Shown piece after piece: positions 2,269-9,677 of a stretch of DNA of 14,953 bases. A model generated the notes under the pieces. It searched no databases. It saw nothing but the letters and a program-made list of their open reading frames with translations, and was not told the DNA's origin. The position numbers and the translations under genes are program-made. Source of the stretch: Pseudomonadota bacterium (GTDB taxonomy: Bacteria > Desulfobacterota > Anaeroferrophillalia > Anaeroferrophillales > Anaeroferrophillaceae); the NCBI GenBank assembly GCA_011042595.1, contig DQWO01000126.1:1-14953 (forward strand), written 5' to 3'. Within the stretch, counting starts at the first letter, position 1, and the number at the start of each line of letters is the position of its first letter.

Positions 2269-2865
2269 TCAGTCCTCAACTTCCTCCCACCCAGTAATCA
2301 TGGCCTTGATGTAGGAAAACAGGGTGCCGCCCGTGGTCGACAAATAGGTGTGAATGACAAGAAAGGCTAAAACCATAAATGCAGCCGCGGTATGTACCAG
2401 AGCCGCGGTCTCAAGGTTGCCGCTCAAACCCATGGCCGGCCATTGATTATAATAGTAATACCAGAGGCCACTGAGCAGTTGCAGCGGCAGGATAAAAATT
2501 TTCAAAGCCAGGTAGGCAAGCCGCTGCAGGGGATTCAGCTTCTGTTCCCTGGTTTTACAGTGGGGATGTGGCTCTCCCTTAAAAATATCGCAGACATAGT
2601 ACCGGGCTATTTTATCCAGGTTTTCCAAGGTGGGAACATATTGTTTCCACTCCCCGGTTGTCGCGTGCCAGAAAATGGCAAAAACACCGAGAATAATTAA
2701 TGACCAGCCACAGAATATATGAACCTGATGAGCTTTAGCAAATCCCAGCAGTTTCAGCACTCCGTGAATTTCAAATCCGGTTATCAGCAACACTATGATC
2801 AGGAAAGCCTGCAGCCAGTGCCAGAACCGCTCAAAACGCGCGTACATCTGAATTTTCATCTTCAT
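2269..2865 (-). CDS. Cytochrome b subunit (b561/thiosulfate-reductase type), partner of the octaheme cytochrome
   Basis: This is a 198-residue integral membrane dihaem cytochrome b that would exchange electrons between the quinone pool and the periplasmic octaheme protein encoded just upstream. Four hydrophobic helices are visible (about 15-35, 47-67, 115-136, 155-176). Candidate haem-ligand histidines are H16 (RFWHW), H46/H49, H67, H158 and H172; the exact pairing cannot be fixed from one sequence. The start ATG at 2865 overlaps the stop of the octaheme gene as ATGA, with AAGGAG eight bases upstream, so the two are translationally coupled. A second in-frame ATG lies two codons later. The family (Ni/Fe-hydrogenase, formate dehydrogenase and thiosulfate reductase type cytochrome b) is recognised with good confidence. 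Direction of electron flow and substrate are inference. Confidence 0.88.
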   Translation of the reverse strand: MKMKIQMYARFERFWHWLQAFLIIVLLITGFEIHGVLKLLGFAKAHQVHIFCGWSLIILGVFAIFWHATTGEWKQYVPTLENLDKIARYYVCDIFKGEPHPHCKTREQKLNPLQRLAYLALKIFILPLQLLSGLWYYYYNQWPAMGLSGNLETAALVHTAAAFMVLAFLVIHTYLSTTGGTLFSYIKAMITGWEEVED

Positions 2866-4484
2866 TTTATCTGCTCCTTTTTCTGCTTATTCCGGCTAGC
2901 CATCCTTATCGCCGCATGGATAATCGTTCCGGCCAAAGTCAGCAGAATCATAATCCAACCGAGGGTATCCAGCCAATCCGATTTATCCCGTCCCGGCAGG
3001 TAGAAACCGGCTAAAGCGGCCAGGCGACCATTACGGCTGTGACACTCGTCACACGTGAGAGATTCTTCCTTGGGGGCCACCATATGGGTGATGGGCCAGA
3101 ACATTTTGGTTTCCACAAACCCGATTTTGCCACTGTATGGTTCCCCGGCTTCCCGCATACCGGCGGCAACCGCTTTGTTCCAGTCATATTCGGCCCAGTA
3201 AGCTCCGCTGCCCTTCTTGCCAAAGAGCTTGGGAATCACCAGCGTTTTTCTGGCGGGATCATAGACTTGTTTGCCCAAATATATCTTAAATGGGAAAATC
3301 CGGGCTTTCGGATCATCATAACTGCCTTCGAGCCGGTTCAATGAAACCGGTTTACTATCATCAAAAGAATCAGCTAAACTGAGATAATCCATCTTGCCAT
3401 TATACCAGGCATAATCGGGTTTTACATCTTTGGCCCAGCGCATATCGCCTTTCTTGGTATGATAAGCGATGGTTCCGTTGGCTGCCCGTTTGACAATCAT
3501 CTTACCATTTTCATCAAACCGACCGGCGGTAGACCAATCCCACCACATCTTGGTATAAACCCCTCCCCGGGCATAACGAGGAATATGGCAGGTCTGGCAG
3601 GCAACTTTATCGGTATGGTCATTGAGTTTGCTGTCTTTATGGGGTGAAGAACTGTGACATGATTCACAGGAAATACGATTACCATAATCTTTCGGCATCG
3701 CCAGTTTATGAATCACCGGGGCCGGATCGGAAGAGTAGCGACCGGCCATATGGTGATTAACGTTTGTATGACAGGCGGTACAGGAAAAATTGGGGCCATT
3801 GACAGCCATATGGACATCCAGCTTTTTATTGGGGCTGAACAGCGATGAATCCAGATCACCATGTTTCACTCCATCGGTTCCCCCACCATAGAAATGGCAG
3901 GCACCACAATTTTTCCGGCTGGGCAAACCCACATTCTGAGCAACCTCAGCTAACTTTACCGGCTTAAAAACCTTTTTCCCGAACTTTTTTTCTTCATATG
4001 CCGGGTGACCACAATCGGTGGGAAATTTTTTATAAGTCCCGGTGGTATCATGACAGACGAGACAATCGACATTGACTTCAGAAGTAAAATCAAATTTTTC
4101 ATCCTTCCAGCCATACCCCGCGTGACAGCTGGTGCACCTGCACCAGTTAGAAATCGGGGTAATTCAGAAGCTGTTGAGGGTATAGGCTTTCCCCATTTTA
4201 TTTAATTGTCCTTTTTTCTTCTTACTCCAGGTCCAATGGATGGTATCATGAACCTGTTTGCCAGCCTCGGTATGACAGCTAAGGCAGGCTTTGGTAACCT
4301 CCGGTCCCCGTTCAAGTCCCTTTTTAAGCTGCTTGAATTTCCGGTGATCTGCAGTTGGTTGGACCGCGATTTTTTTACCGGTGATCGCCGCCTTCTCTGG
4401 CGCCACCCCGGAAGCAGCCAGAGATGGCAGGCTGAAAACGAATACCAGAACAATGGCGACAATTAACTTTAGACAAATTTTCAT
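2862..4484 (-). CDS. Octaheme cytochrome c, tetrathionate reductase (OTR) family, probable selenoprotein (TGA at 4166-4164 read as Sec107)
   Basis: This is a periplasmic multihaem reductase of the octaheme tetrathionate reductase family; members reduce tetrathionate and, in vitro, nitrite or hydroxylamine. Reading through one in-frame TGA gives 540 residues. The order is: signal peptide (1-24, ending SLAA), then CXXCH motifs at 67, 117, 141, 193, 235, 273, 296 and 478 (exactly eight), TYKKFP at 150-155 (candidate Lys ligand of the active-site haem), and a C-terminal transmembrane anchor (about 504-529). The ATG at 4484 has AGGGGGG nine bases upstream and follows the arsR stop by one base. The downstream cytochrome b overlaps by ATGA. 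The TGA follows Tyr-Thr-Leu-Asn-Ser-Phe, ten codons before the second haem motif, where relatives, from memory, carry Cys in an NNFC-type motif. A SECIS-like hairpin follows directly. Extra Cys residues at 115 and 158 are notable. The alternative is a true nonsense mutation or sequencing error, but both halves are intact and in one frame. The substrate is not determined. Confidence 0.85.
4115..4166 (-). promoter_or_regulatory. Bacterial SECIS element (UGA plus hairpin) in the octaheme cytochrome gene
   Basis: Read on minus, UGA is at 4166-4164. Three bases later the lower stem ACCCCG (4160-4155) pairs with CGGGGT (4120-4115). After an 8x8 internal loop comes a perfect 7-bp upper stem CTGGTGC (4146-4140) and GCACCAG (4135-4129), closed by an AGGT loop (4139-4136). 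The first loop G is the 26th base after UGA, within the distance reported for bacterial SECIS elements (roughly 16-37). The tip GGTGCAGGTGCACC closely resembles the Escherichia coli fdhF SECIS tip GGUUGCAGGUCUGCACC, whose loop G and U contact SelB. The hairpin also encodes Trp-Cys-Arg-Cys-Thr-Ser, including the first Cys of the second haem motif, so it is under dual constraint. Confidence 0.8.
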
Positions 4485-4485
4485 T

Positions 4486-4833
4486 TTACAATGCCCCCCT
4501 TTTTTTAAATTCTTCCAGCAGACCTTCCCGTACGATCTGAATTCCCTGCAAAAATTTCTGATTTGCAATCCGATAATGGATTGTTCGCCCGTCACGCCGG
4601 GTTTCCACCGCGCCGTGGTCGCGCATCAAACGCAAGTGCTGAGACACATTTGCCAGCGAAACATTCAATTCTTCCGCCAGTTCGGTAACCGTTTTTTCCC
4701 CAGCTCCCAGAAAGTCCATAATCTGTAAACGAATGGGAGATGAAAAAATAGTACAAAAGGCGGCATGAATCCGAAAGATATCAATCCCAGCAGCCAGATT
4801 TTTCACCTCAGATGCTTTCCCGTTTTCATCCAT
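4486..4833 (-). CDS. ArsR-family winged-helix transcriptional regulator
   Basis: This is a 115-residue DNA-binding repressor, the first gene of the octaheme cytochrome operon. The ArsR fold is clear: a helical N-terminus, SSPIRLQIMDFL (31-42), helix-turn-helix TVTELAEELNVSLANVSQHLRLM (about 48-70) and the wing RRDGRTIHYRIAN (79-91). The classical CVC metal motif in helix 3 is absent and the only cysteine is Cys27, so arsenic or zinc sensing by the canonical site is unlikely. The sensed signal is unknown; a sulfur, selenium or redox cue via Cys27 is only a guess. Its TAA is one base from the ATG of the octaheme gene, so the two are co-translated. The start ATG has AAAGG six bases upstream. It probably autoregulates through the inverted repeat at 5013-5052. 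Confidence 0.9.
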   Translation of the reverse strand: MDENGKASEVKNLAAGIDIFRIHAAFCTIFSSPIRLQIMDFLGAGEKTVTELAEELNVSLANVSQHLRLMRDHGAVETRRDGRTIHYRIANQKFLQGIQIVREGLLEEFKKRGAL

Positions 4834-8461: not shown

Positions 8462-8917
8462 ATGCTTAAACTTTTCAAAAATATCCTGACCCAAAATATC
8501 CGGGAAGAAGAAGATACAGCGACAGTAGAAGATGAGCTGCAACTGGCCACCTGCATGCTGCTGTTGGAGGTCGCCCAGGCCGATGGCACCATTCAGCCCC
8601 AGGAGGAGCTGCAAATTCAAACCATCATACGGAAGCGGTTTTCCCTGTCCGACGCCGACAGCGATAAACTGATTGAAAAGGCCCGGGAACTCCAGACCGA
8701 AAGTCTCGATATCTATCCTGTCGCCACCCTGATCAACAGACATTGGCCAACGGAAGAAAAGTGTCGCTTACTTGAAAATATCTGGCAGATCGTCTATGCC
8801 GATGGCATCCTGGAGCAGCATGAGGATCACCTGATGCACAAACTGGGTACCCTGCTGCAGCTTTCACACCGGCAGTTGATTGATGCCAAATTACAAGCAA
8901 AACAAGCCATCAGATAA
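8462..8917 (+). CDS. TerB-like (tellurite resistance TerB / DUF533-type) protein
   Basis: This is a 151-residue soluble all-helical protein. Two repeat-like halves each carry an acidic DG motif followed by acidic residues: AQADGTIQPQEE (about 38-49) and VYADGILEQHEDHL (111-124). Internal duplication of this kind is characteristic of TerB-like domains, which are thought to bind metal and sit near membranes. The ATG directly follows the MATE stop (TAAATG), with AGAGGA upstream inside the MATE gene. Nothing in the window links it to tellurite itself; single TerB-like proteins occur in many bacteria with unknown roles. The family call is fairly sure, the function unknown. Confidence 0.8.
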   Translation: MLKLFKNILTQNIREEEDTATVEDELQLATCMLLLEVAQADGTIQPQEELQIQTIIRKRFSLSDADSDKLIEKARELQTESLDIYPVATLINRHWPTEEKCRLLENIWQIVYADGILEQHEDHLMHKLGTLLQLSHRQLIDAKLQAKQAIR

Positions 8918-8939
8918 AGACAGACCCCGGAGACTTTCG

Positions 8940-9677
8940 ATGAAAGTAAACTGCGAATACTGTCAGGCCAGATGCCGAATAGACGAATCAAAGATTCCGG
9001 CAACCGGAGGTTTTGTCCGCTGCCCATCCTGCCATAAGGTTTTTTTCCTGAGCCCTGAAGATGCCAGGATTCAGGAACAGGACCAAACACCAGAAGCCAC
9101 ATTACTGCCAGAAAAAAATGAAATCGAACCCCAAGCTGAAAAGCCACCGGTATCTGAAGTTATGGCGGACAAACCAGCAGTTCAACTCAAACCCAAACCA
9201 GCAACCAAAAGCACGACAATCAGGTTGCAAAAATTAATCACTTCTCGACCACTGGCCATAAGCATAGCGGTTACAGTCCTGATCGAAATCATGCTCCTGA
9301 TCCTCTGGGGGACCGGCCATCAGCCAGTTATTCAATCAAAAAGCTCATCACTCAGCATCCCGGTTATTTCTATCCAGATCAAAAATCAGGTTGTTCAGGA
9401 AATAACTTCCCACTCCCTGGTGGGTGATGCAGCCATCAATCAACAGGGGAATGAATTGTCCCTGGCCCTGCTGGTTGACCAGTCCACTCCACCGGCCTAT
9501 GCCCTGAAACTGGGCAGGCAGTTTGTTGAAAATGTAAAAAGGCTAACCGGCACTGGAAAAACCGATAAAAACCTCACAGATTACCCGTCATATCAGTTTC
9601 ACCTGTTCATCTATTATCCCAATGGGAAGGAAGTAACCAACCAGCTTTCAAATACCGGCGATATCAGAGACAATTAG
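8940..9677 (+). CDS. Zinc-ribbon (MJ0042-type) single-pass membrane protein of unknown function
   Basis: This is a 245-residue protein. The N-terminal zinc ribbon has CEYC (5-8) and CPSC (28-31), spaced as in MJ0042-type fingers. A low-complexity Glu/Pro/Lys-rich linker (about 40-100) follows, then one transmembrane helix (about 104-124) and a roughly 120-residue domain, presumably outside the membrane, with no recognised family. This layout (cytoplasmic finger, helix, outer domain) is common in Desulfobacterota and Myxococcota and resembles DUF3426-type proteins. I chose the ATG at 8940, with GGAG seven bases upstream, over an upstream frame extension that begins inside the TerB-like gene. 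It is the third gene of the MATE operon, 22 bases after the TerB-like gene. Confidence 0.75.
   Translation: MKVNCEYCQARCRIDESKIPATGGFVRCPSCHKVFFLSPEDARIQEQDQTPEATLLPEKNEIEPQAEKPPVSEVMADKPAVQLKPKPATKSTTIRLQKLITSRPLAISIAVTVLIEIMLLILWGTGHQPVIQSKSSSLSIPVISIQIKNQVVQEITSHSLVGDAAINQQGNELSLALLVDQSTPPAYALKLGRQFVENVKRLTGTGKTDKNLTDYPSYQFHLFIYYPNGKEVTNQLSNTGDIRDN

Follow-up and report, generated by a model that had tools for sequence, protein, structure and literature searches.

Octaheme c-type cytochromes of the octaheme tetrathionate reductase (OTR) family (NCBIfam TIGR04315), which are expected to reduce tetrathionate, nitrite or hydroxylamine, are represented by the enzyme of Shewanella oneidensis (1SP3), in which we take Cys64, Asp150 and Lys153 to be active-site residues and Lys153 a haem ligand, roles that were reportedly described by Mowat et al. 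in 2004. The existence of a selenocysteine (Sec) form of this family is not new in itself, because a recent review already lists the family once as a GenBank-annotated selenoprotein: its Table 1 carries a “Tetrathionate reductase family octaheme c-type cytochrome” (TIGR04315) with 1 Sec under the accession WP_331457571.1 (PMC13188914, 2026). The table line provides family, Sec count and accession, without motif, SECIS element, distribution or function; the gene considered here belongs to the same family and also has one Sec, a likeness that is drawn from the table line. The same table also includes another multihaem c-type cytochrome with one annotated Sec, ExtKL (NF040886), which is set apart from the present protein by its different NCBIfam family label (PMC13188914). 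Beyond this review, a literature search that covered few subscription papers and no preprints returned no other paper naming this enzyme as a selenoprotein and no characterised Sec-containing OTR, and the deep-Sep paper contained none of the haem terms that were sought (PMC12013277). The initial annotation, which knew of no characterised selenocysteine octaheme reductase, therefore stands as far as characterisation is concerned, but the family had already been listed as an annotated selenoprotein in the review's table (PMC13188914). What is new here is the distribution of the Sec form, the types of its SECIS hairpin, and the repeated exchange between Sec and Cys.

The window, by which we mean the whole stretch of 14,953 nucleotides that was analysed, carries on its minus strand at 2862..4484 an octaheme c-type cytochrome gene of 540 residues including Sec107. 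The frame from 4484 to 2862 contains a single internal TGA, at 4164..4166 (minus strand, residue 107), and ends at a terminal TGA at 2864-2862, so that the frame, its coordinates and the position of the TGA are as first proposed. The read-through protein contains exactly eight CXXCH motifs (at residues 67, 117, 141, 193, 235, 273, 296 and 478) with the UGA located between haems 1 and 2, in agreement with the same proposal, and, judged by eye, it begins with a signal peptide and ends with a C-terminal membrane anchor. The TIGR04315 model matches it with 625.4 bits against a cut-off of 375, over residues 45-495 and model positions 1-440 of 440, and since this score is far above the cut-off, the protein can be regarded as a Sec variant of the OTR family, which bears out the family assignment made at the outset. 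Pfam recognizes Cytochrome_cB and Cytochrome_C7 domains in it, and its alignment with 1SP3 (408 bits) pairs residue 107 with Cys64, Asp204 with Asp150, and Lys207 with Lys153. The two proteins thus share full-length homology, eight CXXCH motifs, equivalents of Asp150 and Lys153, and the same Cys64 column; they differ in that Shewanella has Cys at this column, whereas the window gene has UGA, which we interpret as Sec, the selenium counterpart of the residue expected of the family. The window protein further differs from Shewanella OTR in its putative membrane anchor and in having an adjoining cytochrome b partner. One detail of the initial annotation had to be corrected: the candidate for the Lys-ligated active-site haem had been placed at TYKKFP, but because Asp204 and Lys207 align with Asp150 and Lys153 of 1SP3, the equivalent lysine is Lys207 in the motif GGGTDGVK (Asp204 to Lys207, DGVK, at 3864..3875 on the minus strand). 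As a separate observation on the family, the OTR domain occurs in very long frames of 1063-1106 aa at L159 (4116-7361, minus strand) and in matches from G072, G187, G303, G324 and G298; at L159 it is fused, according to Pfam, behind an NrfD/PsrC-like membrane domain together with extra haem domains, and a neighbouring 730-aa frame looks like a molybdopterin oxidoreductase.

A comparison of column 107 among relatives, as the initial annotation had suggested, came out in favour of selenocysteine. Among the 59 genomes nearest to the MAG of the window (its own included), 25 have an OTR match. Within the same order, all 17 full-length matches have exactly one internal TGA, always at the codon of residue 107, and the eighteenth (G017) is a 3′ fragment that stops short of this column; because 17 of 17 full-length orthologues share one TGA at the same codon, the TGA of the window is not a matter of chance. 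When 395 genomes of the phylum were scanned for OTR matches at E up to 1e-60, 78 matches were obtained in 69 genomes, and 31 of these matches contain an internal TGA, in every case in column 107 (the extra stops counted in the matches of G090, G336, G172, G201 and G244 are the end codons of the genes). Of 97 fetched loci in which the column was readable, 38 have TGA, 56 have Cys, and three (L042, L043 and L046, with at most 30% identity and neither TGA nor Cys) were set aside as unalignable there, so that Cys was read in 56 of 59 TGA-free loci. Dropping five duplicate records leaves 33 distinct TGA loci from 32 genomes, in none of which was a further stop found between the start of the match and the end stop. 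Among the database proteins, for which we considered the matches listed from the best 120 per search (189 proteins), 138 have Cys at column 107, 50 begin downstream of it, and one is gapped there, starting just after the column. An NWC[RS]C motif lies within the first 30 residues in 27 of the 50 late-starting proteins among these listed matches, which is what Sec genes would show if their start had been called too far downstream. One of the late-starting proteins is the 438-aa record P0149 of Thermodesulfatator autotrophicus, whose sequence falls within a TGA-bearing locus of the same phylum (L157, G370:C1) and which looks mis-annotated, since its start lies after the UGA. Both forms can also coexist in a genome: G339 and G199 each have one Cys and one Sec OTR, and G151 has three paralogues, namely L118 (Sec, type B hairpin, see below), L129 (Sec, type A-like) and L140 (Cys).

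Downstream of the TGA lies a candidate bacterial SECIS element (bSECIS) at 4129..4146 (minus strand), a hairpin with a 7-bp stem (CTGGTGC / GCACCAG) and an AGGT loop, which starts 17 nt past the TGA and places its loop at 24 nt; its 3′ arm is overlapped by the attachment site of haem 2 (CTSCH, residues 117-121, 4122..4136, minus strand). Under a model requiring a loop of 3-9 nt, a stem of 4-16 bp, a G in the first two loop bases, a spacing of 16-37 nt and a minimum free energy of at most -7.5 (PMC13188914), the window hairpin qualifies with a loop of 4, a stem of 7, a spacing of 24 and -11.1 kcal/mol. A qualifying hairpin is present at 33 of 33 distinct Sec loci vs. 1 of 53 distinct Cys loci (L058), and none was found after the OTR gene's own terminal TGA. 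Two types can be distinguished. Type A, of the CTGGTGC-AGGT-GCACCAG kind, occurs at 30 loci, while type B (GCAACGA-GGC-TCGTTGC, 13 nt past the TGA) occurs at L118, L125 and L126 and barely reaches the limit of -7.5. The stability of a single hairpin is weak evidence, because 2-11% of synonymous resamples with the amino acids fixed fold at least as stably, and 16% meet the bSECIS model. It is the conservation pattern that provides strong evidence for this putative element: in 26 main-clade loci the mean modal codon fraction is 0.97 in the hairpin (six hairpin columns having synonymous choice) vs. 0.57 in 156 other conserved columns, and the hairpin Arg codon is AGG in 26 of 26, while in 35 Cys loci the two comparable hairpin columns have 0.71 vs. 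0.70 elsewhere. Among the type A loci, L129 has its outermost pair changed on both sides from C-G to U-A, and L030 and L113 each have one G-C changed to G-U. An Rfam search of positions 3900-4300 gave no family match, only three sub-threshold matches of eukaryote type. The SECIS of E. coli fdhF, encoding the Sec-containing formate dehydrogenase H, resembles the window hairpin in having a similar apical sequence after the UGA (GGTTGCAGGTCTGCACC); however, it belongs to an unrelated protein, and the fdhF core begins 11 nt past the UGA and, by our own reading, has a bulged T.

These frozen codons bear directly on the possibility that the ribosome stops at the UGA and restarts, yielding a one-haem fragment and a separate seven-haem enzyme. 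Although database proteins of relatives, among the matches listed, often start at an ATG or GTG shortly past the TGA, no signal peptide would precede the seven-haem fragment, and on general knowledge its periplasmic haem attachment should therefore fail; neither the Cys at column 107 in alignable TGA-free relatives nor the invariance of the hairpin codons accords with such a split, which we consider very improbable.

The genomic context of decoding was searched for in the MAG of the window itself, which is 82% complete and comprises 370 contigs. ARAGORN identified a tRNA-Sec with anticodon tca (70.3 bits), adjoining a protein with a TusA/DsrE domain and a protein of the class-V aminotransferase fold, which we interpret as YedF and a selenium gene resembling a cysteine desulfurase, and selD is present at L016:1429-2532(+), where an in-frame TGA (SGUAAK) makes it probably a selenoprotein itself. 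No match to selA and nothing above the cut-off for selB were found in this 82% complete MAG; the best sub-cut-off selB match (188.9 bits, in a 407-residue frame) was taken as an EF-Tu-like factor. Hence the search for Sec machinery called for by the initial annotation succeeded for tRNA-Sec and selD and failed for selA and selB in the incomplete MAG, though both of the latter occur in close relatives: selA and selB in G001 and selA in G002, both of the same genus, and, among 21 relatives of the order, selA above cut-off in 19 and selB in 17 (tRNA-Sec and selD were sought in the window's own genome only). Outside the order, selA was found in 14 of 14 tested genomes with Sec-OTR; however, it is also present in 34 of 36 genomes of the phylum whose OTR matches are TGA-free, so that selA is not specific to Sec-OTR and Sec machinery is simply common in the phylum. 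This repertoire also speaks to the idea that UGA is reassigned, or read through as Trp, Gly or a near-cognate amino acid, in favour of which nothing was found: the same OTR gene terminates at TGA, Cys fills the column in each of the 138 listed database homologues that extend across it, and the genome's tRNA with anticodon tca is a tRNA-Sec, which together leave reassignment with hardly any probability. That the gene is a pseudogene or a sequencing error, with a nonsense mutation breaking it into the two frames that ORF calling reports before and after the TGA and with late-starting homologues as its apparent counterparts, is next to impossible, given that all 17 full-length orthologues found in the order, and 33 distinct loci overall, have a lone TGA at this very codon and no other stop inside.

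We conclude that the in-frame UGA almost certainly encodes selenocysteine, and that the gene very probably specifies a periplasmic, membrane-anchored octaheme reductase in which a conserved Cys is replaced by Sec, with the UGA decoded by SelB and Sec-tRNA through the hairpin. A cytochrome b561-type membrane subunit at 2269..2865 (minus strand) overlaps the OTR stop by 4 bases and is likely its quinol dehydrogenase partner, and an ArsR/SmtB-family regulator lies directly upstream of the OTR gene at 4486..4833 (minus strand). A homologue of the cytochrome b stands beside OTR at 29 of 33 distinct Sec loci and is absent from all four loci of a second group (L127-L130), whereas an ArsR-family homologue, tested by tblastn, was found at 17 of 33, several of the available stretches being short. 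Elsewhere in the window, 8462-9677 (plus strand) encodes a TerB-domain protein followed by a zinc-ribbon protein, both downstream of a MATE transporter. In Thermosulfurimonas dismutans, a cytochrome b has been described next to an OTR (PMC4911364). Two papers cite the OTR of this species under different locus tags, TDIS_1882 in one and TDIS_1881 in the other (PMC4911364; PMC5276818), which may point to a UGA within the reading frame dividing this gene as well. For a Beggiatoaceae relative, tetrathionate and nitrite reductase activities have been measured (PMC6449678).

We infer that the window OTR works in the periplasm as a quinol-linked reductase and has a selenolate at haem 2. SelB and Sec-tRNA would decode the UGA under the guidance of the hairpin that starts 17 nt past it. 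The most likely route for electrons would lead from the quinol pool to the haems by way of the neighbouring cytochrome b subunit, and at the Lys-ligated haem 2 the selenolate may be faster than a thiolate as a nucleophile or redox group towards an S-S or S-O (or nitrite-like) acceptor.

The history of the exchange was approached with two trees, built without duplicate records and without loci whose matches were short or distant. In the 108-row tree, 26 type A members share a clade with three Cys proteins, P0006, P0008 and P0031 (SH-aLRT 99), which retain NWCRC, the stretch for which the hairpin codes. The remaining four type A members (L127-L130) belong to a subfamily far from this clade, and the type B members, three in number, are placed among Cys proteins. 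At least 7 changes of label are needed in this tree, and 7 again in a 78-row tree with the trait's own columns masked; these trees count changes only and do not distinguish Sec gain from loss. The AU test rejects a single clade of all Sec members together with P0006, P0008 and P0031 (p 3.9e-5, for a group named post hoc, after the first tree). The type B hairpin argues for a separate gain of Sec, while the type A hairpin could be old and often lost; ancestry, local gene conversion or convergence could each account for its near-identical form in two subfamilies that lie far apart. In 11 genomes of the order of G090, no Cys relatives keeping NWCRC were found, only two Sec loci that were already known. 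As a tentative scenario, which we hold to be possible though rather unlikely as a whole, a single phylum may have seen no fewer than three independent swaps to Sec (or back) of the residue at the Cys64 position, by means of two SECIS hairpins that are unrelated to each other. The type A hairpin would impose additional residues on the protein, NWCRC, in which an extra Cys stands two residues ahead of the haem 2 motif, and these would remain as a scar once the position had reverted to Cys. The acceptor of the Sec enzymes would be a sulfur (or selenium) compound of its own kind that is more difficult to reduce.

For the biology of the family, the finding would bring Sec next to the active haem in a respiratory reductase that relies on haems alone, which bears on how selenium enters haem enzymes, and because the Cys form has a solved structure, the role of the residue is testable by comparing Cys and Sec within one family. 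Databases present the products of Sec-OTR genes as truncated proteins, that of the cultivated Thermodesulfatator autotrophicus among them. Lastly, the repeated swap of Sec and Cys at a single column, with two SECIS types and apparent hairpin scars, amounts to a natural experiment on the gain and loss of selenoproteins.
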